64,000 nucleotides of DNA from an uncultured Paracoccaceae bacterium (GTDB lineage: Bacteria; Pseudomonadota; Alphaproteobacteria; Rhodobacterales; Rhodobacteraceae): positions 62,001 to 126,000 of the forward strand of contig CANMPD010000009.1 of assembly GCA_947499635.1 (NCBI GenBank), read 5' to 3'. The notes below the pieces were generated by a model. The model searched no databases and was not told the origin of the DNA. It was given only the letters and a program-made list of their open reading frames with translations. Every line of letters starts with the position of its first letter. Position 1 is the first letter of the stretch. The translations under genes and the position numbers were made by a program. This document shows, piece after piece, positions 25,130 through 64,000 of this stretch.

Positions 25130-25200
25130 CTAGGTCACGCCGCCATCGACACTCAAAATTTGACCGGTGATCCACCCAGCGTTTGGCTTTGTCGAAGAAA
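25130..25200 (-). pseudogene. C-terminal fragment of a short-chain dehydrogenase (SDR)
   Basis: The last 22 codons read SSTKPNAGWITGQILSVDGG then VT and stop. This is the standard C-terminus of SDR oxidoreductases (WITGQ..xVDGG). The sequence upstream in the same frame is unrelated, so the rest of the gene is lost, probably by the adjoining IS21 insertion. Confidence 0.7.
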
Positions 25201-25395
25201 TATGTAGTTTGATTTCAAAATTATACGCGGACAATAGCAAATCACGTGCTCTTCGTCGAATGTAACGAAAGCGGTTTGGACCCACTTGGTAATATCTGCA
25301 TATTTCGACTGTCATCAGCATGTGTTTCAAATTATGTTCGGCGTTGACCGCAAGTTGCAATCAACGCCGATTCCAAATTGGAACAAGACCTCGGC

Positions 25396-39059: not shown

Positions 39060-39225
39060 GATATTTCCTATTGGATGGATAAGAGTCAAACACCATCAGA
39101 ACACCTGCGAGATCTTGATCAGATCCAGTAAGTACGATCACAAAAGGTGGTTGAATGAGATTTTGAAGGCAAACAAACCAATAGAAGCCTTTGAAGGCTG
39201 GGTTTGCTCACCTCGTTGAAATCAT

Positions 39226-40395: not shown

Positions 40396-40422
40396 ATTTA
40401 AAGCCACGGCCAATACGTCAAA

Positions 40423-41127: not shown

Positions 41128-41199
41128 AGGTCTGTTTTCTGCCTTGGACTGGGTAGATGGCGCAATCTCGCACTGATTTATACAATCACGCAACCATTA

Positions 41200-41281: not shown

Positions 41282-41305
41282 TATCTGGACGCAATCGTCC
41301 AGATA
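41282..41305. promoter_or_regulatory. palindromic operator upstream of the isochorismate synthase gene
   Basis: Perfect arms TATCTGGACG and CGTCCAGATA around CAAT, 47 bases before the start. Size and symmetry suit a TetR-family dimer; the adjacent regulator is the likely binder. Confidence 0.65.
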
Positions 41306-41352: not shown

Positions 41353-42537
41353 ATGCAACGTGACCAGACCCGCGAAAGCTTGATGTCATCTGCAAAAACA
41401 TCCGCAGTCTTTCGTTTTAAAACACCAAATTACAGCTTATATACAAAAGGTATTCACAAACAGATCCGTGTCGCTAAATGGACCGGACAAGAGGTCGCAA
41501 CTGCGTTTAAAACCGCATTTGGAAACGCCCCACACACAGGCAAAAGACCCCCTGTGGTCGTTGGTGCAATCCCGTTTTCCGCACAACATCCAGCCCATCT
41601 ATACATTCCAAAACACGTGGAATGGGGGGACGGGATTTCAAAGGGTCCCGGTCGAAACCCGGATGAATCAACGAACACAATACGCCGCATTGACGGTGAA
41701 GATTCTCCGGCCTATCGCGCAGCTGTCGCAAAAGCCTTGCGTCGTATTTCAATCGGCGCGGTAGACAAAGTTGTTCTGGCAAGACGACTACGTGTTTCAG
41801 CGGATAGCGCCTTTGACACCGATGAGATTTTCAACCGTCTTTGCGTTTTGAACCAAAGCGCGTTTGTCTATCAACTTGATTTACCACAGGCTCAAAACCA
41901 GACGTCATCTGTTTTACTCGGAGCAAGTCCCGAGTTGGTTCTCAACAGTACAAATGGCACGGTTCAAAGCGCGCCTCTTGCAGGGTCAATCCCACGTGTG
42001 TCCAGCACAGAGCTGGACCAAAAACGCGGCCAAAATTTGTTGCAATCTCAAAAGGATCTACATGAACACGCCGTCGTTGTCCGCGCCGTTGGTGACCAAT
42101 TCCGACGCCACTGCACAGACGCCATGGTGCCTGCACACCCGGAATTGGTCAAAACACCTGTAATTTGGCACCTGGGCAGTAAAATTTCCGGTCTCTTGCG
42201 CGAGGGTGTCCATCCGGTTCAACTGGCATATGCCCTGCACCCAACGCCAGCAGTTAGCGGTTGGCCGCAAAAAGCCGCACAACGTGCAATTGCTGAACTC
42301 GAAGATTTCGAGCGTGGGTTTTATGCGGGGCTTATTGGTTGGATGGATGCCGAAGGCAACGGAGAGTGGGCACTCACACTGCGTTGTGGTCTGATCAGCG
42401 GTAACACAGCCCAAGTCTTTGCAGGGGCTGGCATTGTTGAAAACTCAGATCCCGAAGCCGAACACACAGAAACCGCAACCAAATTGCGCACTTTTTTAAA
42501 TGCACTGGGGCGCGTTGAGGCTCCGGTCCATGCATAA
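41353..42537 (+). CDS. entC: isochorismate synthase (EntC/DhbC type)
   Basis: Converts chorismate to isochorismate. The 394-residue protein has the EntC pattern: base Lys in DKVVLARRL, LLGASPELVL, APLAGSIPR, KDLHEHAVVV, LHPTPAVSGWP, GFYAGLIGWMDAEGNGEWALTLRC and FAGAGIVENSDPEAEH. AAGGAG lies 5 bases before the ATG. It is on the plus strand, alone, opposite the NRPS operon. A separate salicylate synthase is encoded at the right edge, so its product may supply that enzyme or a 2,3-dihydroxybenzoate branch not seen here. Confidence 0.9.
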   Translation: MQRDQTRESLMSSAKTSAVFRFKTPNYSLYTKGIHKQIRVAKWTGQEVATAFKTAFGNAPHTGKRPPVVVGAIPFSAQHPAHLYIPKHVEWGDGISKGPGRNPDESTNTIRRIDGEDSPAYRAAVAKALRRISIGAVDKVVLARRLRVSADSAFDTDEIFNRLCVLNQSAFVYQLDLPQAQNQTSSVLLGASPELVLNSTNGTVQSAPLAGSIPRVSSTELDQKRGQNLLQSQKDLHEHAVVVRAVGDQFRRHCTDAMVPAHPELVKTPVIWHLGSKISGLLREGVHPVQLAYALHPTPAVSGWPQKAAQRAIAELEDFERGFYAGLIGWMDAEGNGEWALTLRCGLISGNTAQVFAGAGIVENSDPEAEHTETATKLRTFLNALGRVEAPVHA

Positions 42538-42675
42538 ACTAAATAACAGAATAAACTGGTTCGTTTATTAAGAGCCAACCCCTCAGCCTAGCCGCGCTCA
42601 ATACAGCCAGGCCTGATTTCTGTTCTGAATATCACCTAAAATCTGGGCCACGACGACACACACCACCGCCATGTC

Positions 42676-42708
42676 AAAAACCTGCACGGCACGGTGGCCG
42701 GACAGGTT
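42676..42708 (-). terminator. terminator of the NRPS operon
   Basis: On the minus strand AACCTG...CAGGTT with an inner CGGC/GCCG pair, followed by TTTTT, 30-60 bases after the stop of the last NRPS gene. Confidence 0.7.
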
Positions 42709-42735
42709 CTCGTCTAATTTAATCGCTCAAAGCTA

Positions 42736-45700
42736 TTATGTTAAACAACGCGTTGGTTTTGGAAAGAACCCAGTATTTACAAAATACGCGACATAGCGAT
42801 CTAATATTTCACCATCAATGCGCGGCGGGGCGATATCCGTATCTGCTAAGGCAGCTTTGATCTGCGATTGCCCCAGTACAGATTCCTGAACAGGGCCGTT
42901 GTACTTCTTCATGTGATCCGTCAACATAAAAGCCGCATTCAAAGAAGTGTCACCACGGGCCGCACGGCTATTCGCCTCGCGTTCAAGATCTTCAAGCCAC
43001 GCCTCAAACTCCACAGTCTTAAGCGGATATCCAGCACGTTGTGCAGCTGCAACAATCTCTCCGATGCTTGTCTGACTGTGATTGGTAATGTGATAAGTCG
43101 CACCACTTTCACCGTGCTCCAACAACGCAACAATCGCTCGGGCGACATAATCGACAGGGGCCAAAGTCAAATCACTCGACGCCAAATCAGGTACCGCACC
43201 AAGTTGCAGCATCGCGCGAATAAAGTACCAAAACCCCACACCAGGGCCGCAGGCACCACTGCGACTGTGACCGCTGATACGGCCCGGTCGATGAATAGTG
43301 ACAGGCAATCCCGCATGTGCCGCATTGTGCATCATCTCTTCGGCGACCCATTTACTTTGAACATATCCTGTTGGTTCAATCTCTGTCGCCGTAAGACGTG
43401 TCGCTTCGGGGATGATGTCTGGGTTCACACCCTGTTTGGCAACCACGGATGCGGTCGAGATAAAGTGGATCGGAACCGCCCGTTCACCCTGTGTCGCAAG
43501 ACTCAAAATTTGTTCAGCTCCGCCGACATTGGTTGGAGCCAACCGAGCATAGGGTTCCGCTTCGTTCGTTGCGCCACCGTTGTGTATAATGACACCATAG
43601 CGATCGGACAAAGCGTTAAACGTCTGGGCCGTAAGCCCAAGTAAATCCTGCGAAAGGTCCCCCGCCAGGCCGGAAATTCGGTCCTTATAGGCGTCTTGCC
43701 ACAATCCGTACTCTTGCATCGCCCGCTCTACCCGTGCGGTCGCCGATGCATTGTCTTTTGCCCGGACCAAACACTCTATTTTGGCCTCGGATGTCGTTAG
43801 TATTTCAGCAATGAGATGACAGCCCAAAAAGCCCGCTGCACCGGTTAGCAGAACCGGCCGTTCTTGACTGAGCACAACACGGCCTGCCGCAATCAAGGGT
43901 ATATGAGACGGCAGTTTCGAAGCCTCTGTCAGATCCACATCCAGTGTATCCGTCGCCTGCATATCCAACCCGACAACAGAGCTTTGTACAGATACGTCTT
44001 TTGCCTCGGCCAATGCTGCCGGTGTGGGATAATCATAAACATCCCGTACACTCACTTCGGCCTCTAAGCGGTCGCGCAGCATGCCTGCCAGCCTGACCGT
44101 CAAAAGCGAATGCCCGCCCAAATCAAAAAAGTCATCAAAACGGCCAACCGCTTTGACCTCTAGAACCTCTGCAAAGGCCGCGCAGATAGTCGCTTCCATC
44201 CCCGTAGCCGGCGGAGCATCTGTTGTCTGATCCATCTCTGGCTTAGGCAAGGCCGCAACATCCAACTTGCCATTTATTGTCCGCGGCAGGTCATCTACAT
44301 AAACGAATGCGGCTGGTATCATGTAACTTGGCAATTCTGCCCGCAATTGATCTCGCAATGCTGCAATTGCCGGTGGATCTTGGGTCGCGACAATATAGGC
44401 AACCAACTGAAGTGCATCCGCATCGGATTTACGCCCCACAACCGCGGCACGGCTTATGCCATTTATCGAGACGATGACATTTTCAATCTCTGCCGGCTCT
44501 ATTCGATATCCGCGGATCTTGAGCTGACTGTCCGCACGGCCCAGAAAATCAATGCTGCCATCTTCTCGCCAACGGGCAAGATCTCCGGTGCGGTACATAC
44601 GCTCCCCCGGAGCACCACAAGGATGCGCAACAAAGCGTTCAGCGGTCAAACCCGAACGCTGAATATATCCGCGCGCAAGCCCAACGCCACTGAGATACAG
44701 TTCTCCTGTGACCCCAATAGGGGCAGGCAACAGTCCCGGACCAAGGATAAGTGCACGCGTATTGGAAATCGGGCGCCCAACAGACGGTTCTGCACTATCC
44801 GCAAGGTCTGCTCCTAACGCATTAATCGTATATTCGGTTGGTCCATAAAGGTTATACCCCCCGACGCCGGGCGCATCGCGCAGTTGATCCCAAAGCGCAT
44901 CTCCAACCGCCTCTCCGCCCAACGACACGAACACCACGCCTGTGCCCACGTCCCCTTTGGGCCGTGGGCGTTCTAGCAACCCGTGTTCCACAAGATAGGA
45001 TCCATAAGTCGGGGTAACATCAAAGGCGTCGATCTCTGCCGCGTCGAATAACTCAAGCAAGCGATCAGGATCGCGGCGCAACTCGTCACTGATCACATAA
45101 ACTTCGTGACCACTTAGCAACCACAAAAGCTGCTCCCAGGATGCATCAAAGGCAAATGACGTTGTGTGTGCAATCCGAATACGTCGCCCGCCTTGTGACG
45201 CAAGAGTTGGGGCAAAAATCTCCTTTTGGTGGTTCACAAACATATTGGTCAAACCCCGATACGGAACCTCAACCCCCTTAGGTTTCCCAGTCGAGCCAGA
45301 TGTAAAGATCACATAGGCCAGATGATCCGAACCAGCCGGTCGATACACATCTGGACATGTGGTGGGTAAGCTCTCCAAAACGGCTGCAACTTCGGGGGCA
45401 TCAAATTCGACAACGCGATAATCTGCCTGATAGCTGTCTGGCAACAAGTGCCGCATATCACCGGTTGTCAAAATGACAGTTGGCTCGGCCTGATCCAAAA
45501 TGGCCTCGATCCTTTTGGCCGGTGTCTCTGCATCAATGGGAACATAGGCCGAATGCGCCGCAAACACGCCAAACAATGCAACAATCATTTTCTCGCTGCG
45601 CGGTAGGAGCAATGCAACCTTATGTTCAGGATGAACCCCCCGCATTTGCAAGAAACGTGCCAACTGGTTGGCTTGTTGGGATAGTTCAGCAAAGCTAAGC

Positions 45701-48700
45701 TCAACATCCCCTGCAACTACGGCACGTAAATCGGGTGATTTTTCTGCCTGAGCAATCAATAAATCCGAAACAGAGGCATTTCCATACTCCAACACGTTCC
45801 CAGAATCTGTTTGAGGCAACCGCGCAAGGCTGTTTGCCAAAGCATCAATGTGCAATATCGCCTTATCCGGTTGCGCAATACATTCGTTTAATATGTGTTG
45901 ATAGGCTGACAAAAGATCCGAGGCATAGTTGCCCTCGATCAAATCACTGCGATACATCAATCGTACAGTGATCCCATTCTGCGACGGGGACACTGCAAGG
46001 CTAAGCGGATAATGCGTCGCGTCACGCACTGTCGCTTGACCAAATGCCACATCACTGCTGTGATCCAGTGTCATAGGAGGCAAATTTTGTATCGCAAACA
46101 GCGTGTCAAACAACGGATTATGTCCCGAAATCTGCATCAACTGTGAAAGCGGAACATGTGCGTTTGATAAGGATGCGGCCTTTTGATCATGCAGCGATGA
46201 CAAGGCCTGGCGAACCGTCTCTCCCTCATGGGCATGGATCCGCGATGGCACAGTGTTAAAGATCAAACCGATCATTTCATCAACGCCTTCAATCCCTGCC
46301 GGACGACCAGACACAACAGTACCAAACACAACATCAGGATTGCCCGACATACGGATCAACAAAAGACCCCAAGCCAATTCAAGTACAGAACTCAGTGTTG
46401 TCGATGCATCACGCGCTAAATCTGACAATGCCTTCATTGCCGAGACAGGAATATGCGCTTCTTGTTCTGCGCTATGGGTCACTGTCGCCTCAAGCCCCTG
46501 CGCCGCCGGATATAATAGTGTCGGTTGCGCCCCAGAGAGTAACGCGCGCCACGGCTCTTGTGATGCCTCTGGGTCTTGCTGTTCTAGCCACGACAAGTAC
46601 CGCCCGATACTGGGAGGTGTAATATCCGCATCCGGCGTGCTGTACATTTGAAAAATCAAACGACACAGCAGGCGTATGGACCAACCATCCAACAGAATAT
46701 GGTGTGCTGTTAAATAGAACTTATGCGTTGTCGTGCCCCCTTCGGGTGCAACGCAGGTTGCCAGAGCCATACGGATAAGCGGAGGCTTGGCGATATCAAA
46801 GGTCGCGTTATATTCTGCATCAGCCAAGACCTGCGCGTCTGCTTCTGTCGCGACGTTCATATGTGCAAATGGAATGCGGATGCTGTGCGGACAAACCTGA
46901 ACCGGTTTGCCACCGATCTCGGAAAAGCCTGCAGTAATATTAGGGACTAACGCAGCCGCACGATCAATTGCCCGTTGCAACCGTCTGGGATCAATTTCAC
47001 CGCTAAGTGAAAGAGTTGTCTGAGAAATATAGACATCTGATGTATTCTGGGATGTCCCCGCCGCATGAAAGCGCAAACCTTCCTGCAAGGGCGAAAGAGA
47101 GAATACGCCTTTAATCGCACCAAATTCATCTTCGATCTTGCGCCGCTCCCAAGCGCTCAGTGCGAGAGCCCCTTCGCTTGCACGCGAAGCGGAACAGGCT
47201 GGCACAGCCGTTATATTGGTTGCCAATGTGGCAAAATTCTTTGCCCATTTCTGTAAAAACACCTTGGCGTCATGGGACATATCACATGTTTTCAGACTGA
47301 AACACACCCGCTTGCTGTGCGCACAGACGTCAATCCCTAACCAAGTCACTTGGTCTGACATCTCGGGATGGGTGGGCGGTACAAACGCCACGTCACCCCA
47401 ATCCGATAGACGAACGGACAGAACCATTTGTGGGTCAGGTAAATGGTCAAACGCACCTGCTGTTTCCGAGTGTATATCCCGCGCCATTTGATAAGAGACC
47501 GCGATATTGCCAGTCAAAAAGCGATCATCCGGCAAGGATAAAGCTGTATCTGACAGCTCTAACATCTCGGCTGGCAAGGGGTCACTTTCACCGCGCGAGG
47601 CGGGATTAAGCACAGTTGGCACATAGCGCCGGCATTTCCCGATCACATAAAACCCACCGTCCTCCTGCGCAAAGCGATCCCGGTCTGGTTCGTCAATATC
47701 CAGACGACAAGGCTGCGTCAGCATTGGCATCAGTGCAGCAACTGCAACGCGGCGCAGATCACGCGGATCAGGATGGTTTGGGATATCTGACAGCTCTAGC
47801 ACCATATTTTCCAGAAACGGCTCTTGCCCATCTGTCTCATTAGGTTGCGACGCATGCGTCTCCAAAAGATCCAGCCAATCTTCTGCCAAATCTAGCACCG
47901 CCTCAGATTGACCCAGTTCAACAGTGCGGGTCAGCCAAGTGTCATAAGATGCGGATGCTGTTGACTGTGAAACCTCTGCATTTTGACGGATATCAGCCAG
48001 CTCGGATAAAACCAACGCCCAGGATTCAGGGTCAAGCAAACCCGCAGGCGCCGACACAATCAGGTTCTTATCTTCCGCAACCCAAGCCAAAAATCGATCA
48101 TTTGAGGCCGCCTTAGATTGTTCCAGCGCACCGCTCAGCCCCTCAAACAATTCAGCAGTTTCTAACACGCGCCATCCGCGCAGCTCTGGGTCATGGATTA
48201 ACCGCAAGGCCGGATTGCGCGCAATGAGCCTGATCAGCGCCCGGCGTATTTCATGGTCTTTGACATCGTCGCGCAAAGCAATTTGTCTGTGCTCGGGGAT
48301 GTCAGATGACCGCTTTGACAAACCAGACAAAGCGATCTCGGAAAACGGTGACTCGACAATATATTGCACCTCAGACAAAGGCGTGTCGGTACAATAGATC
48401 ATCTGACCTAATGTTGCCGTGAGTTGTGAGACCAAGTTCGCAGCCGTTTGCTCAGAATACAAATCACAGGCAAACAGCAATGAAAGCCCAATGCGCCCCT
48501 GCCCCCCTTCATCGTGTAAAACAAAGGTCAGATCGAATTTAGCTTGCGTTTGACGTGGTTCTTCCACAACCCAACGCGCGCCAGAGAACTCCATATCTGG
48601 CCAGGGTCGACTGGTTGTCACCATCACATCAAACAATGGATTTCGGGCAGCTTGGCGAACAGGATTGACACGTTCAACCACAGTCTCAAACGGCACATCC

Positions 48701-49791: not shown

Positions 49792-51269
49792 TGATCTGTT
49801 CCTAATTTCCCAAAAGCATCAGCGGCACAAGGCACCGGTCTGACAGGCGGAATTTGATGTATTTCTGCGCCGCGAGATTGCGCATGTCCCAAGCTATCGG
49901 CATGCGCCAAAGTCCAGATCTCACCCGGATGAACCAACGGAACCCCCGGCGGATATGGAATGATATAATCTGGACACTCAGCCCCTATTTCTGGCTGCTT
50001 TGCCACGTGCGCCCCCTCAAATGTGACCCCGTCTGGGGAAACCGTTTCTGAGTTGTGAGGCCTCTCGCGCCAATCTTGCTGTGCGAGGTCAAGCAAAGCG
50101 GTCAAAAGCGCCTCAATGTTTTGCTTGCTGACGCCCACATGAATACGTGCGATCAATGTATCCTTGCTATGTGCAATCAAAATTCGATGATGTTCGAACA
50201 GCCATTTTTGAATATATTGCGCCGGTGCTGGGCTCTGTATTTGCACGACAAGTGGATCAATTTCATGAAATGCGTCTCGTGGCGTCGGGACAACCAAAGG
50301 CCTCAACAGAGGGTTTCCTTCCAGCTCTTTCATCACCATTCCGCGCAACCCATACGCACGCGACAACGCATCACCACCACATCTTTGACCATGCACCCGC
50401 GCAAGATCCAAAGACACAAGGATCGGCCACGACGGCGAGGTTGAATGATTGCGGTAAATTGCCTGCCTCAGCCGCGCCACATCCTCGGTGTCACCAAGGA
50501 TATGAATATACGTACCTTGCCGTAACGCAGCCATCGTTTTATGCGCCGATTGCGTCACAATAACAGGCGCATGTATGTCCAATTGGCGGCAAACCGAGAG
50601 TGCCGTCGTCCGGGCGGTTTTCGGCCCAAATGCATAAACAGCAGACCACGCTTCATCCACAATAATAGCGGTTTTAGGGGACGCTTCGTTTAAGATTGGC
50701 AATACGTGCTCTAGCCGCACGCGCCGTCCATCATAGTGACATGCTGTTAACACCATCACATCAAAAGGCCGCCCCTGCGCACAGCGCTGTGTGAGCAACC
50801 GCACCGTTTGAACCACATCTATATGCGCCAAATGCCCCCGCTTAATATGAGGCATTCGCGTCACCTTGCGCTCTTCGCTTGCAAAGACCACAGATTGATG
50901 TGCTGCGGGATCCACCAACACAGATCCATCATGGGGGCACACGGCCTCTATTGCGATGCGATTGGACAGCGTCGTCCCATTGGTTCCAAAGAAACTTGCG
51001 TCTGCGCCAAACGCTCGTGCTGTGGCACGTTGTGCAATGGCCAATGGCCCCGTTGGCGCAAAGAATGAATCCACAGCACCCCCAACCCAAGTGTTGTCCA
51101 CGGTGTGTGTGCCGTTGACAAGCAAGGCCTGATATTGGGCCGCGAGGTCCTGCGGCATATCTTTCATCGCCCCCGCCCAAGGAAGCGCGTGGAAATTATG
51201 AACTTCGGGCCCCTCGGTAAAGTCGGCAAAGTAATTCGCCAGCGGTGCGGCTTCGACGTCAGGCAACAT
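49788..51269 (-). CDS. PLP-dependent Orn/Lys/Arg decarboxylase family protein
   Basis: 493 residues of the fold-type I Orn/Lys/Arg decarboxylase family, of the short (SpeA/YaaO-like) size. The PLP Lys is in VTQSAHKTMAALRQG, the Asp that holds the ring N in IIVDEAWSAVY, and substrate-loop FFGTNGTTLSNR near the N-terminus. It would make putrescine, cadaverine or agmatine. The gene sits inside the NRPS operon, overlapping both neighbours (11 and 4 bases), with GGGAGGAG before its ATG. The amine is likely a building block of the siderophore. Amino-acid specificity cannot be read here. Confidence 0.85.
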   Translation of the reverse strand: MLPDVEAAPLANYFADFTEGPEVHNFHALPWAGAMKDMPQDLAAQYQALLVNGTHTVDNTWVGGAVDSFFAPTGPLAIAQRATARAFGADASFFGTNGTTLSNRIAIEAVCPHDGSVLVDPAAHQSVVFASEERKVTRMPHIKRGHLAHIDVVQTVRLLTQRCAQGRPFDVMVLTACHYDGRRVRLEHVLPILNEASPKTAIIVDEAWSAVYAFGPKTARTTALSVCRQLDIHAPVIVTQSAHKTMAALRQGTYIHILGDTEDVARLRQAIYRNHSTSPSWPILVSLDLARVHGQRCGGDALSRAYGLRGMVMKELEGNPLLRPLVVPTPRDAFHEIDPLVVQIQSPAPAQYIQKWLFEHHRILIAHSKDTLIARIHVGVSKQNIEALLTALLDLAQQDWRERPHNSETVSPDGVTFEGAHVAKQPEIGAECPDYIIPYPPGVPLVHPGEIWTLAHADSLGHAQSRGAEIHQIPPVRPVPCAADAFGKLGTDQ

Positions 51270-55503: not shown

Positions 55504-55509
55504 CTCATA

Positions 55510-56889
55510 TCACCACACTTGTTGGGCAGCAGCTTTGATTGCCGCCTCTAGGTTGTTCAGTAGCGTCTCGATTTTGGTGTGATCAAAGCGACGGCGGGCA
55601 TAGGTTGCCTCGACTTGAAATAGGGCCTCTTGCCCACGACCGTGGACAAAGACCTCAAGCCCTAGGGGCACCAATGGAAATTGGGTTGCGCCTGTGTGCA
55701 GCCTCTCCCAATCACACGAAACATCCGTAAGCTGCGGCCCCTGTGTTCCGCTGGGAATAAAAACCACCAAACTATCAAACAGTTGTGGGCCGCGTGCAGG
55801 ATCATCACATCCTGCCAATTTACATATATCTTCATAAGGAAGATCTGAGTGTGCAAAAGCAGCATCAACCTCCTGAGACACCGCAGGTATGAATTGTTCT
55901 GAAACAGGCGTTCCCGCAATCTGGAACCGCAAAGGAATGTGGTTCGCAAAATTGCCAATCGTCTTTTGAATTTGCGGGGCTGCACGGTTGAGAACCGTTG
56001 TGCCCAACGACAGCTCTTTTTGTGGGGCATGCTGCCATAGAACATATGCCCAACAGGCCATAAATGCCTTGAAAGGCGTGACACGGTGCGCGGTCGCAAG
56101 TGTAACCAAATCACGGCCACACGACAGGGTTCTGTCGAGACGATCTGCCGCCTCCTCTGGGGCCGCAAGATCCCCGCTGCAATCTGCAAAACTCAACTTA
56201 GGTAAAGCGCCACCAACTTTAGAGCGCCAAAACGCTTGGGCCTGATCGTGCTTGTGCTCTCGGCTATCCCATTCAGCCCAATCCGCATATTGGGCCGACA
56301 CCTGTGGCAGCTGAATGCCTTGGTAAAGCTGTTCAAGTTCACGACAGATCAGATCAAATGTCGCCCCGTCCCAAATGATATGATGAATAATCAATGTCAT
56401 GCGCAGTTGCGCCACATTGGTGCGATGCATCAAAACCCGCAAAGGGGCATCACGTTCCAGATCAAAAGGCTGTTCCAGCGCTTTCTGAGCCCGCGCGCGG
56501 GCCTCATTCTGGGTCAGGGTCAAAGCCTCGCAATAAAACGGCAACTCTGCGTGGATAACCTGTCGTGGAGCATTCGTGCCTGTTTCGCACTCATAGGTCG
56601 TCCGCAAGATTTCGTGTCGCAGAACCAACGCTTTGATCGCACTCAAAAGACGGTCTTCTTCGACCAGACCATCAAATATAAACGTCAGGCCCAGCACATC
56701 ACTCAGACTGCCAGGATGATGGGCCTCGTAACGCAAGCTATGCCGTTGTGTTGGCGATAGACACGCAGCGCGCGGATGCAAACGGGCTGGGATGCCCGCA
56801 GTATCACCGGACGCATGAGTGTTGTGTTCCTCTGATAACCCCGACGTTTTCATACGCCGACGCAGCAGGGCCTGACGCGCAGCACTCAT
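55510..56889 (-). CDS. free-standing condensation domain protein (VibH-like)
   Basis: 459 residues consisting of a leading basic segment (QALLRRRMK) and one complete condensation domain with HHIIWDG and LNRAAPQIQKTIGNFAN. No adenylation or carrier domain. In vibriobactin synthesis the free-standing VibH joins an aryl-acyl carrier to a free amine; a similar job with the amine from the neighbouring decarboxylase is plausible. Overlaps the upstream gene by 4 bases and is 6 bases from the next. Confidence 0.85.
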   Translation of the reverse strand: MSAARQALLRRRMKTSGLSEEHNTHASGDTAGIPARLHPRAACLSPTQRHSLRYEAHHPGSLSDVLGLTFIFDGLVEEDRLLSAIKALVLRHEILRTTYECETGTNAPRQVIHAELPFYCEALTLTQNEARARAQKALEQPFDLERDAPLRVLMHRTNVAQLRMTLIIHHIIWDGATFDLICRELEQLYQGIQLPQVSAQYADWAEWDSREHKHDQAQAFWRSKVGGALPKLSFADCSGDLAAPEEAADRLDRTLSCGRDLVTLATAHRVTPFKAFMACWAYVLWQHAPQKELSLGTTVLNRAAPQIQKTIGNFANHIPLRFQIAGTPVSEQFIPAVSQEVDAAFAHSDLPYEDICKLAGCDDPARGPQLFDSLVVFIPSGTQGPQLTDVSCDWERLHTGATQFPLVPLGLEVFVHGRGQEALFQVEATYARRRFDHTKIETLLNNLEAAIKAAAQQVW

Positions 56890-59348
56890 GACAGAACGGG
56901 CTCTCGCATATCCGCATCGTCTTGCGATGCAGCAGCTGCGTCTTCTTCCGCCAGTAAGGCTGCGACCTCCTCGTCAGACATATTGCGAATGTCCATCGTA
57001 AGCGCCGCAATTTCATTCAGCCGCTCAATGTCATCTTCGGTTTCCAGATACGCGATAAGTTCCGCCACCGTTGGAAACTGGAACAACACCCGCAGGGTTA
57101 TTGCAGCTGTATCCAGTTCTTCTTGCAGACGGGCGACAACGCGGGTGGCGAGTAAACTATCACCACCCAATGCAATGAACTCTTCATTGATACCAATTGT
57201 CTCAAGGCCCAAAACCTGTGCCCAGATATCCGCGATAACCTGTTCAAGGTCTCGCGTCGGAGCAACAACCTCGCGTGTGCCACTTTCGCGTTGGATCAGA
57301 TCCAAAAGCGCAGCCGTGTCCCATGTCCCGCCAACGACACGCGGCAGATCGTCCGCAATCACAATACGTTCCGGCAACAGATGCGCAGGGACACGGCGGG
57401 CAAGTTCTGCACGCAGGGTCTTACCTGTCATATTCTCAACCGTTGTTTCAAACACAACAACTGCGGCGAAACCTTCGGGCCTTACAACAGTCGCAACCTC
57501 GCGAATGCGTGGATCGGTGCGTATTGCGCGCTCAACATCCTGCTGCCAAACAGGAACGCCATTGACCTGAACGTAATGGCTCAGCTCCCCGTCTGTCTCT
57601 TCTCCTAGGATCTGAACCGTACCCGCCTCATCCGCGCGGGCCCATAGGGTTGGGTTATGCTCTAATTGGCCGACAACATGCGCGGGGCAGTCCACCCCAT
57701 TGGCATCGACAATTCGCACGCTCTCTGTCTGTAAACTGCGCGCAGTACATGGTGCATCGTGTACAGGCAAAGCCTCGTGCCACGTACTTTCGGCATCAAC
57801 GACAGCCGTAAGCCAACGTTCAAATTGTGCAAACATCGCATCAGCAACCCCAGCCGCCAGTGCCTCTTCGCGTATGTCCCAATTGACCAAAATACCTTGG
57901 TTAAATTCGGTGATTTGAGCGTCTAACAACACCTGCGGCCCCTGAGAGATAACCCAAGCAGGCTGACCAAGGCAGTCAATAGCCTCCTGTGAGAACAACT
58001 CGCCCAAACCCAGCGCACTTGTGAACACAACCGGAGCCAAGACCGTTTCGCCGCGCATGCGTCCAAGGCCGCGCAAAACATCAAGACCGCTATAGGCCGC
58101 ATGGGTTGCGTCTTTGTGCATGCGTGCCTGCAACGCACGTACCCGCTCTAGGAAACTGGCAGGTTGTCGCAAGTCAACTTCCAACATAATCGAGCTGGAA
58201 AAATCACCAACGACTTTATCAATCTCAGAGTGCACAGCCGGACGGTCAAACATCGGCACATTTAGCAAAAAGTGCTTTGTCGCACTCCAACGTCCGACGA
58301 CTTCTGCAAGGATCGTGGCAACCGTCATTGCCGGCGTCACACCATGGCGTTGCGCCATCGAAAACAGGGTCGCTTTTTGTTCAGGCGTAAACCACATATG
58401 GCGGCGCGTAACCTTGGGATCAGCTGCCGCATCAGCAGACAGCAGCGTCTCCGGCAAAATGGGCGATCCGGGCAAAGACTGCAAACGACCGCTCCAGGCA
58501 GCTTCTGCATCTGCTGCTGCAGCCGTCTTGTGCGGTTGAACGCCTATCAGATAATCACGGTAGCTCAGCGACAGATCCGGCAGGGTTGCGTTTTTATGCG
58601 ATAACAGCGCAACCAGATCTGCAATCAAAATACGATAGCTCACAGCATCAGCAGCAATCATGTCCACATCAATATGAAGACGCGTGGCCCCATCAGGCAG
58701 CAGGCTTAAGGCTGCGCAAAAAACCTCTCCACGTTCCACATCCAAGGATTGATGCGAAAAATCATGACGCAGTTGCTCTAACCGCGTATTCCGATCCTCG
58801 GCGCTTAAGTCCCGTAAATTATAAACCGTAAACGGGAGCTTTGGCGCTTGGATGATCTGTTGGTGACCATCAACCGTCACTTTGGTACGCAACGAAGCAT
58901 GGCGTTGCATCAACTGTGTAAACGCGTGATGCAGATAATCTGGATCTTGCTGCCAATCCTGTGCCGTATCGACTTGGTCAAACTCAACATATAAATGTGC
59001 AGCAACCCCGCCCAGTCGTTGGCCCGGGCTGCGACCAACCCAATAGGCATGCTGCATCGTCCCCAATGGCATCAACGCGTCATCTGCCGCAGGTGCCAAA
59101 GCGGTTGGGGTTTCGCTGACCTCAGAGGCCCCCAATGTATGGATCCAGGCTGCCAGTGTTGGATTTTCCGCCAGACCTGCGAAATCCACTTCGATACTGT
59201 CGCGGCGCAATCGGTTCACAACACGCAGGAGGCTTATTGAATCCAGCCCAACTTCAAAAAGATTGTCTTCTAAACCCAGCGAACTTGCATCGTCTCCTAG
59301 AAATTCGGCCAAAGTCTGACGGAGAAGGTTTTCAAAATGATCTGTCAT
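56886..59348 (-). CDS. NRPS: carrier-heterocyclisation-truncated A-carrier
   Basis: 820 residues. N-terminal carrier (about 1-75) with GLDSISLLRVV, likely an aryl carrier. A Cy domain follows (about 85-520): it opens MPLGTMQHAYWVGR and has the heterocyclisation motif D-x4-D in DMIAADAVSY in place of HHxxxDG. Residues ~525-690 look like only the C-terminal part of an A domain, and the A10 Lys is missing (VGGTWD for the usual GK.D). The second carrier has LGGDSLLATRVV. So its amino acid must be loaded in trans, most likely by the adjacent free-standing A domain. The product would be an aryl-methyloxazoline thioester. Confidence 0.87.
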   Translation of the reverse strand: MTDHFENLLRQTLAEFLGDDASSLGLEDNLFEVGLDSISLLRVVNRLRRDSIEVDFAGLAENPTLAAWIHTLGASEVSETPTALAPAADDALMPLGTMQHAYWVGRSPGQRLGGVAAHLYVEFDQVDTAQDWQQDPDYLHHAFTQLMQRHASLRTKVTVDGHQQIIQAPKLPFTVYNLRDLSAEDRNTRLEQLRHDFSHQSLDVERGEVFCAALSLLPDGATRLHIDVDMIAADAVSYRILIADLVALLSHKNATLPDLSLSYRDYLIGVQPHKTAAAADAEAAWSGRLQSLPGSPILPETLLSADAAADPKVTRRHMWFTPEQKATLFSMAQRHGVTPAMTVATILAEVVGRWSATKHFLLNVPMFDRPAVHSEIDKVVGDFSSSIMLEVDLRQPASFLERVRALQARMHKDATHAAYSGLDVLRGLGRMRGETVLAPVVFTSALGLGELFSQEAIDCLGQPAWVISQGPQVLLDAQITEFNQGILVNWDIREEALAAGVADAMFAQFERWLTAVVDAESTWHEALPVHDAPCTARSLQTESVRIVDANGVDCPAHVVGQLEHNPTLWARADEAGTVQILGEETDGELSHYVQVNGVPVWQQDVERAIRTDPRIREVATVVRPEGFAAVVVFETTVENMTGKTLRAELARRVPAHLLPERIVIADDLPRVVGGTWDTAALLDLIQRESGTREVVAPTRDLEQVIADIWAQVLGLETIGINEEFIALGGDSLLATRVVARLQEELDTAAITLRVLFQFPTVAELIAYLETEDDIERLNEIAALTMDIRNMSDEEVAALLAEEDAAAASQDDADMREPVLS

Positions 59349-61003
59349 GAGGAAGTCTCTTTTGTAAGGGTACGGCCACGCGCAACGCGGCGGCGCAGCA
59401 ACGCACTGCGGTCCAAAGTTGCCGCAGGGGTTTGACGGGATGACGGGGCAGGCAATGCCGCCCGATCAAGTTTGTTATTGGGCGTAAGCGGCAGCGCCTT
59501 TAGCGCGACGATATGTGTCGGGACTAAATGCGCGGGCAGGGTTTGGTTCAAATGGGCCCGCAGGCCACGCATGTCGCTGGACGCTTGGGACCCCGTTACA
59601 TAGGCTACCAAACATTCGTCGGCTGCCGTGCCGTCAGGGTCTGGTTTGATGGCTACCGCGCTTGCGGTGATACCGGGAAATGTTTCCAGAACCGCCTCGA
59701 TTTCGCCCGGCTCGATCCGAAATCCTCGCAGTGACAGTTGCAAATCTGCCCGACCCGCAAACTCTAACTCGCCCGCCGTGCGCTTGACCAAATCGCCCGT
59801 GCGGTATAGCCGCCCTCCCCCGCCTTTGGGATCTGCGATGAAACGCGTGGCGGTTAGGCTGGGACGACGCAGATACCCCCGTGCCAACTGCGGGCCACCA
59901 AGATAAAGCTCCCCGAGATCCGTGGTTTCCACAGTCCGCAACTGAGGGTCAAACACATGATCCCGAAAACCAGCCAAGGGCCTGCCAATTGGGCTGGCCG
60001 TGTATAAAGCGCCCATATCCGCATGCATATCAAGCGCGGTAACATGGACTGTGGTTTCAGTAATGCCGTACATATTGACCATGCGGGGTCTTTCTGGACG
60101 GCGAGAAAACCAATTTTGCAAGCGCGCAGGCTCCAGGGCCTCGCCCCCAAAAATGACCAAACGCAAAGCAGAAAGCGCGCAGTTATGCTCCTTATCTGCC
60201 TGCGCCAAGGCCGCAAACGCAGTGGGCGTCTGGTTTAAAACTGTGACCTTTTCACGATCCAACAGGGTCAAAAATTCAGATGCAGACCAAGTTGCGTCCC
60301 GCGGGACAATCACAGCCCGTGCACCTGTCAGCAAAGGCGCCCAGATTTCCCAAACCGAAAAGTCAAACGCATAGGAATGAAAGACACTCCACACGTCTTG
60401 ATCACTGAGATCAAAATGCGGGATCGTTGCATCAAGCAGGCTTAAAAACGCATCATGCGAAACAACGACACCTTTGGGGCGCCCAGTCGAGCCAGAGGTA
60501 TAAATCACATATGCCGCGCTCTCGCCTGTTAAACCCCCACGAAGACGTTCCAACGTTTCCCCGGCCCGGGGCGGATGGGGGCGCGACATTGCCGAGGCTT
60601 TGACGACAGGGACAGTATTTGCCGGGATCTCAACACCCGCATCCGTCACAAGGCTGACCGGCTGCGCGTCCGCGATCAAATACGTCAATCTGTCCTTAGG
60701 GTAATCTGGATCCAAAGGCAGATATGCGGCCCCGGTTTTCAACACGGCCAAAAGCGCAACGATCAAGTCTATCGACCGAGGCAGCGCCACCGCAACGATT
60801 GTTTCTGGTTTGGCCCCTTGTGCTGCGATTTGTACAGCCAGCGCATCAGATCGCGTGTTGAGCTCGCCGTAGCTCAGGCTTTCACCGCCAAAAGTTACTG
60901 CGCAAGCATCAGAATTAAGCGCGACCTGATCTAGAAACCGTTTCACAAACGTAGTCACATCATTTTCCTCCAACAAGGTCTCAACCGTCAGCCCGACAGG
61001 CAT
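59345..61003 (-). CDS. free-standing adenylation domain, predicted threonine-activating
   Basis: 552 residues, one A domain: VIYTSGSTGRPKGVVVSH, MYGITETTVHV, LYRTGDLVKR, FRIEPGEIEAV and A10 PNNKLD. Reading the ten specificity positions by eye against GrsA gives D-F-W-N-I-G-M-V-H-K, the textbook threonine code. It has no carrier domain and overlaps the Cy protein by 4 bases, so it should load threonine on the second carrier of that protein. An alternative GTG start at 60958 has GGAGG 8 bases upstream and is at least as likely as the ATG at 61003. Confidence 0.88.
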   Translation of the reverse strand: MPVGLTVETLLEENDVTTFVKRFLDQVALNSDACAVTFGGESLSYGELNTRSDALAVQIAAQGAKPETIVAVALPRSIDLIVALLAVLKTGAAYLPLDPDYPKDRLTYLIADAQPVSLVTDAGVEIPANTVPVVKASAMSRPHPPRAGETLERLRGGLTGESAAYVIYTSGSTGRPKGVVVSHDAFLSLLDATIPHFDLSDQDVWSVFHSYAFDFSVWEIWAPLLTGARAVIVPRDATWSASEFLTLLDREKVTVLNQTPTAFAALAQADKEHNCALSALRLVIFGGEALEPARLQNWFSRRPERPRMVNMYGITETTVHVTALDMHADMGALYTASPIGRPLAGFRDHVFDPQLRTVETTDLGELYLGGPQLARGYLRRPSLTATRFIADPKGGGGRLYRTGDLVKRTAGELEFAGRADLQLSLRGFRIEPGEIEAVLETFPGITASAVAIKPDPDGTAADECLVAYVTGSQASSDMRGLRAHLNQTLPAHLVPTHIVALKALPLTPNNKLDRAALPAPSSRQTPAATLDRSALLRRRVARGRTLTKETSS

Positions 61004-61017
61004 AACTTCTTTGTCTC

Positions 61018-61041
61018 AGGACAGCGGTTTTCACCGGTCCT
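61018..61041 (-). terminator. hairpin upstream of the threonine A-domain gene
   Basis: Arms AGGAC-AG-CGGT and ACCG-GTCCT around TTTC in the ~100-base gap between the aryl-AMP ligase and the A-domain gene, the only sizeable gap in the operon. It could tune expression of the NRPS part. Confidence 0.4.
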
Positions 61042-61102
61042 AAGGGTAATTTTGACGTTTCATGTGAGGCTGGCGTAGGTAGGCCGCTAGCAGAACTCGC
61101 GC

Positions 61103-62758
61103 TTATTGCGCTGGAATGAGATCAGAAAATTGCGCAATCAGCGCTTTGCGATCCACTTTACCAAAACGGGTAAGTAGCAGATTTGGCACGACTTCTAATC
61201 TGTCCGGCAACTTATATGTCGCAACACCGCGCGTGCTGAGGTAGCTGCGCAAATCCCGAAGACGCGGCACATCCGAGCCAGATAAACAAATGACAGCACA
61301 ACACATTTGCCCAAGCGCCTCGTCCGGCAAGCCAATCACCGCCACATCGCGCAGACTTGGGTGATCAATCAGGTGGTCCTCGATCTCGGCGGCTGAAAAC
61401 TTTTCCGCAGCACGGTTGATTTGATCACCGGCCCGCCCTTCGACGATCAGATGCCCCGATGAAAGCCTGCGCACCAAATCACCACTGCGATAAAAACCGT
61501 CCGGTGTGAAAGCACGCGCATTTACCTCATCAGATGCCACATAGCGACGGATGGTATAGGGACCGCGCACCCAAAGCTCGCCGACCTCTCCCTGTGGAAC
61601 TTCGCGCCCAAGTTCGTCAACAATTCTGAGTTCATCATCCTCGCATAGGGGACGCCCCTGACTGGTTTCAACCAAATCTAGCGCATCCTCAAAGCGGGTA
61701 AAGTTTAGCAGACCTTCCGCCATGCCAAAAACCTGCTGCACGCGCGCGCCCAACATTTTGGGAATACGCGCGGCCATGCTGGGGGCCAATTTTGCACCGC
61801 CAACCTGCAAGAGCTCAAGACTGGACAGATCCCGATCGTCAAATTCGCGGGCTTCTAACCACAGGGATATCAGCGTCGGAACCGCTGCGGTGATAGTCAC
61901 CTTATGGCGTTCAATCAACCCAAACACCGTATCAGGGCTTGGGTTTTTTGCCAGAACAACCACCCCGCCAACACACAACGCGCCTAAAATGCCCGGGCAC
62001 GCCAAAGGAAAGTTATGTTCAACCGCCAAGCAGGCCAGATACACTGTATTGGCTCCCATACCACATACCTCTGCACTGGCGCGTGCATTATAGAGATAAT
62101 CATCATGGGTGCGCGGAATGAGTTTCGGAAGACCGCTGGTGCCACCCGAGTGAAGGTATAGCGCAACTGAACTTGGATCGACCTGAGGCAAGTCACCCTT
62201 GGGTTCCGCCATATCACACAGGAGCTGATATGATGTTGCCCCAGCCAGCGTTCCAACATCGCCAACCACCAAAAGTTTGGTCACATGCGGCAGGGCCGTT
62301 TGGATCTCCTGCGCCAGTGGGCGAAAATCAAAACTCGCAATGCGATCAGGGATCGCATAGGCAACCGCACCTGATCCTTGCGCAAGATGCAGAACTTCGC
62401 GCGCACGATGTGTAGGCAACACCATGACAGGAATGATCCCTGCGCGAATACAGCCGAAAAACAATGTAATCAGCTCAATCGTATTGGGCAGTTGCACGAT
62501 CATCCGCTGACCGGGCTGTAAGCCCCATTGTAACAAGGACATAGCCATTTCATCTGCAGCGCTATCAAGCGCCGCGTAAGAAACCGATTGACCCGCCGTA
62601 TCAATCAGTGCGGTGCTGTCGGGCTGCGTTTGCGCGAAGTCGCGCAATGGCTGTGACAGGCACTCACCCGTCCAATACCCTTTTTCGCGATACCGTTTGG
62701 CAAAGTCTTCGGGCCACAAAGACCCCGTCTCAGAACGTGACGACTGTAAAGCACCCAT
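61103..62758 (-). CDS. aryl-acid AMP ligase, salicylate type (EntE/YbtE/PchD family)
   Basis: Activates an aromatic acid as AMP ester and loads it on the aryl carrier. 551 residues from the ATG at 62758, which has AAGGA 7 bases upstream (another ATG is 5 codons earlier). Family motifs: LHSGGTSGLPKLIPRTHDDY, VEHNFPLACPG, QVFGMAEGLLNFTR, YRSGDLVRR, RAAEKFSAAEIEDHL, GKVDRKAL. At the two positions known to separate substrates (DhbE 240 and 337) it has Cys and Leu, as in salicylate-activating enzymes, not the Ser and Val of 2,3-dihydroxybenzoate enzymes. The salicylate synthase upstream agrees. Confidence 0.87.
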   Translation of the reverse strand: MGALQSSRSETGSLWPEDFAKRYREKGYWTGECLSQPLRDFAQTQPDSTALIDTAGQSVSYAALDSAADEMAMSLLQWGLQPGQRMIVQLPNTIELITLFFGCIRAGIIPVMVLPTHRAREVLHLAQGSGAVAYAIPDRIASFDFRPLAQEIQTALPHVTKLLVVGDVGTLAGATSYQLLCDMAEPKGDLPQVDPSSVALYLHSGGTSGLPKLIPRTHDDYLYNARASAEVCGMGANTVYLACLAVEHNFPLACPGILGALCVGGVVVLAKNPSPDTVFGLIERHKVTITAAVPTLISLWLEAREFDDRDLSSLELLQVGGAKLAPSMAARIPKMLGARVQQVFGMAEGLLNFTRFEDALDLVETSQGRPLCEDDELRIVDELGREVPQGEVGELWVRGPYTIRRYVASDEVNARAFTPDGFYRSGDLVRRLSSGHLIVEGRAGDQINRAAEKFSAAEIEDHLIDHPSLRDVAVIGLPDEALGQMCCAVICLSGSDVPRLRDLRSYLSTRGVATYKLPDRLEVVPNLLLTRFGKVDRKALIAQFSDLIPAQ

Positions 62759-62759
62759 A

Positions 62760-63620
62760 TCAAGTTCCTTCATTGATCGGCGTGTTCGAATAGGATTTCA
62801 AAAATGAAATCATCAAATCATTCACCGCTGCTGGTTGTTCTAAATATCCGTAATGACCCGCATTGGGGACATCTGCGAAAACCGCGTTTGGAATTGCGTC
62901 AGCAACTTCGCGAGTTAGGTTCGGGGCAATTGCGATATCATCCGCAAAAGCCAAGGCCAGGAATGGCACCGTGATCTGTTGATACGCACTGCGGCGGTCC
63001 TTTAGATCGGCTGAGACTTGCAACTGGGCCGCGTGACCGGCACTGATGCCCGCATCATTCAACGACAGCATATCCAGCCAATCCTGTGCAGTTCGTTCAT
63101 TGGCGCGTGTGGCCGGAGACAAATATTGCAAGGCATCCACAGCAGCCCGATAGGCAATCGGTGCAGGTTCAGCCTGTTTGGCCATTGCAATTTCACCGTG
63201 CACCATAGCGCGCTGCACAGGGTCGAGACGCGCATGTGCTGCCATTGCCACCACATATGTCACCAATTCTGGATGCGCCAATGCCACTTCGGTTACGATA
63301 CGCGCCCCAAGCGACGTTCCGATCAATGCCACCGGGCCAAAATCCAAGTGTTTGATCAGTGCCACAACATCTGCGGCCATATCCTCTATTGTGAAATCGC
63401 TTGCGTCTTCAGCACTTGGCGCTATGCCACGATTGGTCAATGTGACAACACGATATCCCGCAGATATAAGGGCCGGAACTTGGTGAAAATTCCACACACG
63501 CCCCGGGCTGCCGGTTCCCATAACCAAAACAACAGTCTCTAACGCCTGCGCCGCACCTTTTGGCAGATGCAATTCATATGCGAATTGCAGACCATCATGC
63601 ATGAAATATTGGACAGCCAT
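62760..63620 (-). CDS. alpha/beta hydrolase of unknown role in the siderophore operon
   Basis: 286 residues from ATG 63620, with GGGGAGG about 9 bases upstream; the frame opens 10 codons earlier inside the previous gene. The nucleophile elbow is GTSLGA and the catalytic His is in NAGHYGYLEQP. It is not a typical type II thioesterase (no GHSxG). It may hydrolyse stalled or finished siderophore esters. It lies between the salicylate synthase (5 bases) and the ligase (1 base). Confidence 0.75.
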   Translation of the reverse strand: MAVQYFMHDGLQFAYELHLPKGAAQALETVVLVMGTGSPGRVWNFHQVPALISAGYRVVTLTNRGIAPSAEDASDFTIEDMAADVVALIKHLDFGPVALIGTSLGARIVTEVALAHPELVTYVVAMAAHARLDPVQRAMVHGEIAMAKQAEPAPIAYRAAVDALQYLSPATRANERTAQDWLDMLSLNDAGISAGHAAQLQVSADLKDRRSAYQQITVPFLALAFADDIAIAPNLTREVADAIPNAVFADVPNAGHYGYLEQPAAVNDLMISFLKSYSNTPINEGT

Positions 63621-63624
63621 CGGT

Positions 63625-64000
63625 TCATTCCTCCCCAGATGCTGAACCATCGCACGGCACCAAAAAGCGGCTCACACTGCGCAATTTTTCGTTGGTCTCT
63701 TCCAATTCACGCGCTGCTTTTGCACCGACAATCAGCCCGGCCCCTGCCCTCAGCCATGCCTGCCCGTCTTGCTCAATAACGGATCGGATCGCGAGGGCAG
63801 CATCCAAACAACCGTCACTATCCAGCATCAAAACGGCACCACTGTATACCCCCCGTGCCGCGCTCTCTCGTGCTGTAATTTCAGCACGTGCGCGCGCTTT
63901 TGGGATGCCCGACGTCGTCACTGGCGGGAACAGACTCGCAAAGGCCGCCCAAGCGTCGTTTCCCCCAGTCAACTGCCCTTGGACTGTTGATGCGATGTGC
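63625..64000 (-). CDS. salicylate synthase, C-terminal part (cut by window edge)
   Basis: The last ~124 codons are in the window. The frame reads HIASTVQGQL, ASLFPPVTTSGIPKARA, ARGVYSGAVLMLDSDG, WLRAGAGLIVGA, and ends with LEETNEKLRSVSRFLVP. This matches the Irp9/YbtS/MbtI branch of chorismate-using enzymes (HLGSxVxGxL; ETxEKLxSIAPYL) better than EntC. These enzymes turn chorismate to salicylate through isochorismate. First visible gene of the NRPS operon. Confidence 0.85.
   Translation of the reverse strand, partial: HIASTVQGQLTGGNDAWAAFASLFPPVTTSGIPKARARAEITARESAARGVYSGAVLMLDSDGCLDAALAIRSVIEQDGQAWLRAGAGLIVGAKAARELEETNEKLRSVSRFLVPCDGSASGEE

Follow-up and report, generated by a model that had tools for sequence, protein, structure and literature searches.

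A predicted salicyl-methyloxazoline siderophore cluster in an uncultured Paracoccaceae bacterium, with the looks of a rearranged relative of kasichelin- and madurastatin-type assembly lines

Siderophore pathways of the vibriobactin and agrobactin families combine an aryl-methyloxazoline with a stand-alone condensation (C) domain, two traits that recur here. As for the kasichelins of Streptomyces sp. K17/9, the accessible part of their description gives a nonribosomal peptide synthetase (NRPS) line of the order Cy / C-A-PCP-E / C-A-PCP-E (Cy, cyclization; A, adenylation; PCP, peptidyl carrier protein; E, epimerization), with a β-alanine (β-Ala) or β-aminoisobutyrate (BAIBA) linker and N-hydroxyornithine (N-OH-Orn) (PMC12305651). 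In the madurastatin clusters, the accessible parts of two reports assign PanD to β-alanine and place a Gly module before the β-Ala one (PMC10779116, PMC10951976). The subject of this work is a 64,000-nucleotide stretch, hereafter the window, from an uncultured Paracoccaceae bacterium (GCA_947499635.1, contig CANMPD010000009.1, positions 62,001 to 126,000): an NRPS siderophore cluster occupies its positions 41353–64000 and extends beyond the window end. Judged from its genes, the cluster rather likely directs the synthesis of a siderophore from salicylate, Thr, a β-amino acid and N-hydroxylated Orn or Lys, with a logic of the kasichelin/madurastatin type and a location that is probably plasmid-borne.

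Compared by description, the kasichelins have a phenolate oxazoline from Thr, as predicted for this cluster, and a module order like its own; the β-Ala/BAIBA linker and N-OH-Orn would probably be shared as well, as far as the accessible part of their report goes (PMC12305651). Unlike them, the window has a split-off Thr A domain, degenerate E domains, release by a reductase domain, extra C domains and a pyridoxal phosphate (PLP) decarboxylase. The madurastatins (mad, rene and mds), compared in the same way and with the same restriction on their two sources, have in common with it a salicylate synthase, a salicylate ligase, a Cy domain and probably, by the prediction made here, a β-Ala module and an ornithine N-hydroxylase, whereas theirs is a line with Ser, Gly before β-Ala, PanD, two N-OH-Orn and a lactam end (PMC10779116, PMC10951976). 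The cluster was not placed among the madurastatins or kasichelins because PanD and a reductase-free lactam end were not encountered; it would rather be a new variant of the phenolate-oxazoline/hydroxamate siderophores with its own uptake genes, the product being a prediction.

Read in the direction of transcription, the minus strand carries a TonB receptor, a binding protein, a siderophore-interacting protein (SIP), an N-hydroxylase, MbtH and salicylate synthase, then an alpha/beta hydrolase, an aryl-AMP ligase, a stand-alone A domain, a protein with aryl carrier (ArCP), Cy and PCP domains, a stand-alone C domain, P0003, P0002 and P0001; past P0001 lie an isochorismate synthase on the plus strand and, again on the minus strand, a TetR regulator, a 4'-phosphopantetheinyl transferase (PPTase) and a Fec-type importer. 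The first of these genes lie on L001, the stretch of the same contig past the window end (about 82 kb together with the window). Within 41353–64000 the features are the following.

41353–42537, plus strand: isochorismate synthase of the DhbC/EntC type (NCBIfam scores)
42736–49791, minus strand: NRPS P0001, C1 - degenerate E-like - C2 - A - PCP - thioester reductase (Pfam, thioester-reductase model, codes, profiles, motifs)
49788–51269, minus strand: P0002, PLP decarboxylase of the Orn/Lys/Arg fold-I family (Pfam OKR_DC_1)
51259–55503, minus strand: NRPS P0003, C - A - PCP - degenerate E-like (Pfam, A-domain clade, profile comparison)
55510–56889, minus strand: P0004, stand-alone C domain with HHIIWDG (Pfam, motif, C-domain tree)
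56886–59348, minus strand: P0005, aryl carrier - Cy (DMIAAD) - A-domain remnant - PCP (Pfam, motif)
59345–61003, minus strand: P0006, stand-alone A domain with code DFWNIGMVHK (Pfam, code)
61103–62773, minus strand: P0007, salicylate-AMP ligase with ACPG and EGLL motifs (closest solved chain 5wm2, motifs)
62760–63650, minus strand: P0008, alpha/beta hydrolase (Pfam/NCBIfam)
63625–64000, minus strand: C-terminal 124 residues of the salicylate synthase, whose gene runs on to L001:3016

Most parts that the original prediction had named were recovered: its salicylate-type ligase is P0007, nearest to 5wm2 and with the same motif pair, its threonine A domain is the stand-alone P0006 with a Thr-type code, and Pfam assigned the aryl carrier-Cy protein (P0005), the OKR-family decarboxylase (P0002), the two large NRPSs (P0001 and P0003), and the neighboring PPTase and Fe-siderophore importer (binding protein, FecCD, ATPase).

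Regarding salicylate, the synthase expected from the first reading does exist, cut by the window edge, and reached 376.9 bits with TIGR03494 (cut-off 325.15); the gene at 41353–42537 is instead an isochorismate synthase, with 271 bits for isochor_syn (cut-off 224.75) and 349 bits for the DhbC model, under its cut-off of 486, and it was ruled out as a salicylate synthase, for which it scored 123 bits vs a cut-off of 325. The best solved relative of P0007 is the salicylate-AMP ligase 5wm2, which we take to be CahJ (607 bits, vs 558 for the best 2,3-dihydroxybenzoate (DHB) ligase); both have the ACPG/EGLL pair, presumably positions 240 and 337, and the DHB enzyme compared has SSPG/EGLV. The code of P0006, which we take to be that for Thr, is identical in 4/4 rhizobial orthologues examined. 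In P0005, Pfam left between Cy and PCP a weak C-terminal A-domain match alone; its Sciscionella, Pseudonocardia and Embleya homologues have at that spot an A domain with a readable code, so the adenylation core of P0005 was probably lost and P0006 supplies it in trans. Because of the salicylate-type ligase, the Cy domain and the Thr code, the salicyl-methyloxazoline siderophore pathway proposed at the outset is well supported, and the salicylate supply, its loading and a Cy domain with Ser/Thr that mark kasichelin/madurastatin-type lines are all found in the sequence.

The assembly line resembles a rearrangement of the kasichelin/madurastatin-type ones, with the Thr A domain split off, two degenerate E domains, the apparent loss of an A-PCP and reductive release. 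In profile comparisons with five genuine E domains, matched along the full domain, the C-terminal region of P0003 gave 90% (E 1.9e-7), C domains being nearly equal at 88.5%, and the middle region of P0001 gave 96.5% (E 8.4e-10), with C domains at 0.35%; a predicted structure of the P0003 region (mean pLDDT 35.9) was set aside as unusable in favor of this comparison. Both E-like domains are probably inactive because their HHxxxDG motifs are degenerate: HAxxxDG and, in P0001, AP....DPESW, with DDESW or DEESW in the rhizobial proteins. P0001, the C1 motif of which is PHxxxDG, has the look of a dimodule that lost an A-PCP. In the C-domain tree, one group (support 0.96 and 0.914) holds P0004, the C domain of P0003 and the C domain that comes first behind the Cy protein of Pseudonocardia and Embleya; inside it, P0004 is paired with the Pseudonocardia domain at no more than 0.416. 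C1 falls among later C domains (0.874) and C2 among those located behind E or E-like domains (0.998). The C domain foreseen as VibH-like is real as a stand-alone protein, P0004, and it falls with C domains adjoining Cy in a tree that does not contain VibH. As for the reductase initially listed, it is present as the terminal domain of P0001 (residues 1980–2342, motifs TGAAGFLG for TGxxGxxG and YVQSK for YxxSK); the kasichelin/madurastatin-type line ends in cyclic N-OH-Orn without a reductase, whereas P0001 ends in a thioester reductase. MxcG of the myxochelin pathway is similar in its C-A-PCP-R order and reductive release, according to the accessible part of its source (PMC9611931); its model is matched by part of P0001. 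P0001 differs from it with 692 bits in all vs an equivalog cut-off of 2300, and in an aryl unit that is here salicyl-oxazoline, the MxcG A domain lying outside the trees. The cluster would be a case of an assembly line remodelled by the loss of A and PCP domains, with degenerate epimerization domains kept.

The module after Cy points to a probable β-amino acid. Its A-domain code was read as I-D-A-M-L-T-A-G-D-K, in register with the relatives, and in the A-domain tree P0003 stands with the IDTT(V/I)S(S/L)GDK domains (support 0.988) of Pseudonocardia pLS2-1, Embleya NBC_00896 and a second Sciscionella cluster; after the addition of the first Sciscionella cluster (C1, IDTMVTSGDK) and of the genome G477 (VDSMVTSGDK), the whole β-type group had support 0.998. 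P0003 is therefore within a PanD-linked clade, with M/T in place of T/S, and the enzyme that accompanies the domain changes too: each of the three T/S-type clusters in the group (L084, L085, L086) bears PanD, with P0002 not found by tblastn, and P0002 occurs in 7/7 M/T-code clusters (the window with L001, L003, L004, L009, L010, Sciscionella C1 and G477), with PanD not found beside it in the same kind of search. The count covers 20–43 kb per cluster except for the window, and 4/7 are near relatives; the complementarity is probably one evolutionary switch. At whole-genome level, PanD gave no match in the window genome (98.01% complete, 50 contigs), A. cavarae or P38BS-XIX, and three matches in Sciscionella. 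Because the A-domain code covaries with the decarboxylase, the residue of P0003 may be a relative of β-alanine.

Regarding P0002 itself, an alignment of the protein and five cluster orthologues with 11 generic relatives showed 26 conserved positions at which the two sets depart from each other. Q125 (HQS for HKS) and R250 (T/S in the relatives) are among them, the latter at a distance of six residues behind K244, presumably the PLP lysine. This comparison was made without G477, which departs at residue 69. If confirmed, P0002 would show an OKR-fold decarboxylase in the place of PanD as supplier of a β-amino acid, a proposal open to direct test. Two more specific ideas were weakened: a strict link of P0002 to β-Ala, by relatives in other settings (G425, G521 and Azospirillum), and a link to the reductase (for instance an amine plus an aldehyde), by G477, where P0002 lies beside P0001-, P0003-, P0004- and P0007-like genes (the Cy part being outside the stretch fetched) and a thioesterase replaces the reductase. 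In G425 (L099/L100, about 17797–25277), the P0002 relative adjoins a DAHP synthase, a chorismate-binding enzyme, an amidotransferase and a chorismate-mutase-like open reading frame (ORF), and the cluster queries gave no NRPS match there, which suggests a wider decarboxylase family.

As for the hydroxamate part, the N-hydroxylase scored highest with MbtG (398 bits) and lower with KtzI (311), an L-ornithine 5-monooxygenase (270) and another L-lysine 6-monooxygenase (174); a diamine hydroxylase was ruled out, given 98 bits for putrescine N-hydroxylase vs 398 for MbtG. The P0001 A domain has the code DA[W/E]DSGLINK (third position W or E by alignment; one alignment displaced the first two positions), which recurs unchanged in R. 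tumorigenes, A. cavarae, P38BS-XIX, R. etli, Sciscionella and G477; it is 47–51% identical to the DMENLGLINK-type domains of the PanD-type clusters, and it joins their clade with support 1.0. Taken together, the hydroxylase and the two A domains point to a β-amino acid and N-hydroxy Orn or Lys, in the order known from the kasichelins (PMC12305651), and not to a diamine core.

The following sequence of events is proposed. Salicylate would come from salicylate synthase, perhaps with the help of isochorismate synthase, and P0007 would load it onto the aryl carrier of P0005; P0006 would charge the PCP of P0005 with Thr in trans, and Cy would then form the salicyl-methyloxazoline. P0003 would add the β-amino acid, most likely β-alanine or a close relative, that P0002 would make by decarboxylation of aspartate or of a substituted aspartate; P0001 would add Orn or Lys N-hydroxylated by the MbtG-like enzyme. 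A second salicyl-oxazoline may be transferred onto the hydroxylamine to give a hydroxamate and a total of six donor atoms, given that the line has a pair of Cy-adjoining C domains (P0003-C and P0004) besides the two C domains in P0001, and that the Pfam scans of the cluster proteins, all but one small ORF at 39226–39600, showed no acetyl or formyl transferase. Finally, the reductase domain would free the chain as an aldehyde or an alcohol. The calculated [M+H]+ values of such predicted products are 407.1925 (aldehyde) and 409.2082 (alcohol) for salicyl-methyloxazoline, β-Ala and N-OH-Orn, and 610.2508 and 612.2664 when a second salicyl-methyloxazoline is present (626.2821 for the alcohol with Lys). 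Read to its full extent, as a new alphaproteobacterial plasmid siderophore family with two salicyl-methyloxazolines, a hydroxamate on reduced N-hydroxyornithine or -lysine and an OKR-fold aspartate-type decarboxylase in place of PanD, the scheme is a tentative proposal.

A number of observations weigh against the preferred route through a β-amino acid and N-hydroxy Orn or Lys. Starting from P0002, its NCBIfam score (74 bits) is far below the cut-off, Pfam places it in OKR_DC_1, its nearest solved relatives are arginine and lysine decarboxylases (81 and 75 bits), and we know of no Asp-specific enzyme in this decarboxylase family. Three relatives outside the clusters have R250 as well, and two of these three have Q125, so that R250 is no proof of an Asp-type substrate; the relatives in G425, G521 and Azospirillum lack a β-type A domain nearby. 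In P0003, automatic alignments gave DAAMLTAGDK, DxAMLTAGDK or IDAMSTAGDK, the start register being a reading, and the code departs from the PanD-type ones at two pocket positions. The M/T-type A domains form one subclade (0.942), so PanD may have given way to P0002 just once, with P0004 arriving together with P0002; the added tree strengthens the clade and, for this same reason, weakens the independence of the pattern. Roseibium (L087) has a T/S-type code outside the clade, with neither PanD nor P0002 in 31 kb. The sole NCBIfam match of the hydroxylase is histamine N-monooxygenase (161 bits vs a cut-off of 700), and no hydroxylase was found in the Sciscionella C1 cluster. The P0001 code agrees with the N-OH-Orn code at 7/10 positions, and one position (239) is ambiguous via a shorter loop. 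Finally, P0007 has 449 bits with the salicyl-AMP ligase PchD, below several DHB ligases.

Part of this evidence would suit another route, in which the product of P0002 is a free diamine (cadaverine, putrescine or agmatine), acylated by P0004 in a VibH-like manner to give a salicyl-oxazoline amine branch. Both the OKR membership of P0002, next to arginine and lysine decarboxylases, and the company of the stand-alone C frame, found with P0002 in 7/7 clusters, would be explained if P0002 served P0004 with a diamine. This route is nonetheless unlikely: the hydroxylase is not of the diamine kind, P0004 groups with the Cy-adjoining C domains of PanD-type lines with the supports given above, and the active-site region of P0002 departs from that of generic relatives at HQS and R250. 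The amine or diamino core of the original prediction is not supported, the hydroxylase being nearest to lysine and ornithine enzymes, the two other A domains resembling the β-amino acid and N-hydroxy-Orn/Lys types, and P0004 grouping with Cy-adjoining C domains.

A mycobactin-like product, in which P0001 would use N6-hydroxylysine to leave a reduced lysine end and P0003 would carry some other small residue, is a still weaker candidate and quite improbable. The cluster resembles mycobactin in its MbtG-like hydroxylase, its MbtH and its ArCP-Cy protein, related to mycobacterial and other actinobacterial NRPSs; it differs in the β-type module and the reductase release, the Pfam scans, made on the cluster proteins only, did not find a polyketide module or an N-acyltransferase, and the P0001 A domain sits in the DMENLGLINK clade. 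A catechol siderophore of the vibriobactin/agrobactin kind, with DHB made via the isochorismate synthase present here and with several DHB ligases scoring well against P0007, is very improbable given the salicylate-type ligase motifs, the salicylate synthase, the lack of polyamine evidence, and the absence from the cluster of an isochorismatase, the two isochorismatase-family matches of the genome lying at least 17 kb from 41353 and DHB dehydrogenase having been left out of the searches. One of these matches, a frame at window 23600–24187, has one in-frame TGA and is possibly a pseudogene.

Regarding its distribution, tblastn of P0002 vs plasmids gave 13 records: 8 Rhizobium, 4 Azospirillum and 1 Ensifer. 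All four Rhizobium plasmid loci opened (of the eight) keep the order of the window from the N-hydroxylase through P0001 (N-hydroxylase, MbtH, salicylate synthase, hydrolase, ligase, A, carrier-Cy, C, NRPS, decarboxylase, NRPS), and because of this conserved run the cluster is not a chance assembly. In these loci the isochorismate synthase lies between the ligase and the A domain; the run is followed by PPTase and TetR on the opposite strand and then by TonB receptor, binding protein and SIP, a placement that differs from the window. The correspondence of TonB, SIP, TetR and PPTase was judged from the annotations alone, which show no FecCD importer in the four stretches. The part from the Thr A domain through the second NRPS occurs also in A. 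cavarae and Rhizobium sp. P38BS-XIX. Identities for P0001–P0009 range from 43.5 to 65.7% (L003, L004, L007–L010, as far as the loci reach), and in L003 and L004 the hydroxylase is 58–59% and the salicylate synthase 46–47% identical. The one Azospirillum record opened, out of four, has no such cluster around its P0002 relative, and the stretch concerned in the Ensifer record is unannotated.

In a scan of GTDB contigs with 68 loci, A. cavarae, Rhizobium sp. P38BS-XIX and L51/94 matched at 44–47% and Sciscionella marina at 39%, and the remaining 64, mostly Firmicutes, at 22–42%. Genome sampling found one in 394 of the own family (E 1e-30) and one in 385 of the class (E 1e-40), each being the own genome, one in 394 of the family of A. 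cavarae (E 1e-50), which was that genome, and, with the Sciscionella protein, 4/297 of its family (E 1e-40), a count that takes in its own genome. Such a rare and patchy occurrence fits plasmid transfer; the prediction is a siderophore common, via plasmids, to the organism of the window and to plant-associated strains of Rhizobium, and Actinomycetota have a related core. The expectation that the pathway was undescribed is consistent with the literature, since no product of this cluster is described among the PMC open-licence matches listed (bioRxiv, most subscription papers and MIBiG being outside this scope). In the accessible parts of the sources, a metallophore survey has Rhizobium and Agrobacterium in its reference list only, for vicibactin and fabrubactins (PMC12971057), and the kineochelin (PMC13238742) and Sinorhizobium RirA (PMC8822346) papers concern other products, petrobactin in the latter.

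As a side observation, Sciscionella marina C1 (L077/L078, about 208137–241153) is a divergent homologue of the cluster that also has acyl-CoA dehydrogenases and an A domain of the proline type, which may serve to make a pyrrole unit; the second, PanD-type cluster of this species is on another contig (L086). Loci around P0003-A matches in Roseibium, Streptomyces cadmiisoli, a Mycobacterium plasmid and Methylobacterium were inspected and set aside as other lines. P0008 is a candidate editing or release helper; its homologue is present in Sciscionella and was not found in the G477 stretch examined.

The interval 41353–64000 first delimited does contain the NRPS cluster, and its limits did not hold, because it begins and ends inside a larger gene set: MbtH, N-hydroxylase, SIP, binding protein and TonB receptor lie downstream, and TetR, PPTase and importer upstream. 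These flanking features are as follows.

36137–39089, minus strand: Fec-type importer, with ATPase 36137–36898, FecCD permease 36892–37947 and binding protein 37944–39089 (Pfam ABC_tran, FecCD, Peripla_BP_2)
39700–40413, minus strand: PPTase (Pfam 4PPT_N and ACPS)
40423–41193, minus strand: TetR-family regulator (Pfam TetR_N)
41287–41305, plus strand: candidate operator GGACGCAATCGTCCAGATA, near-palindromic, between TetR and isochorismate synthase
after salicylate synthase, to L001:4645: MbtH and N-hydroxylase (Pfam)
to L001:9411: SIP, binding protein, TonB receptor (Pfam)

The pattern GGANNNNAWCGTCCAGWTA matches exactly at 41287–41305, at L001 4862–4880 upstream of the hydroxylase, and at L001 9457–9475 upstream of the TonB gene, the three sites from which it was itself written; allowing up to two mismatches, the sole further match in the window and L001 was the reverse reading of the first site (expected matches: 0.26 and 0.08). 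These sites are a candidate operator of the TetR protein of the cluster. TGA-N9-TCA, which we take to be a RirA-type box, was dropped as a loose pattern with 34 matches in 81.9 kb of the window genome; among the intergenic stretches tested it occurred once in the window genome, upstream of TonB, and in 5/6 stretches of L003 and L004.

All five condensation-type matches of the genome (3.6 Mb, 50 contigs) fall within this cluster. It probably lies on a RepABC-type plasmid or chromid, because a RepC gene sits on the same contig (160,477 bases), at its end (159949–160404). In a flanking piece, a choline-sulfatase gene has its best plasmid match, 74.6% identical, in Qingshengfaniella, with Paracoccus, Rhizobium and Ciceribacter behind. 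Finally, the ORF at 39226–39600, of 124 residues and located between PPTase and importer, has a signal-peptide-like start and a few cysteines.

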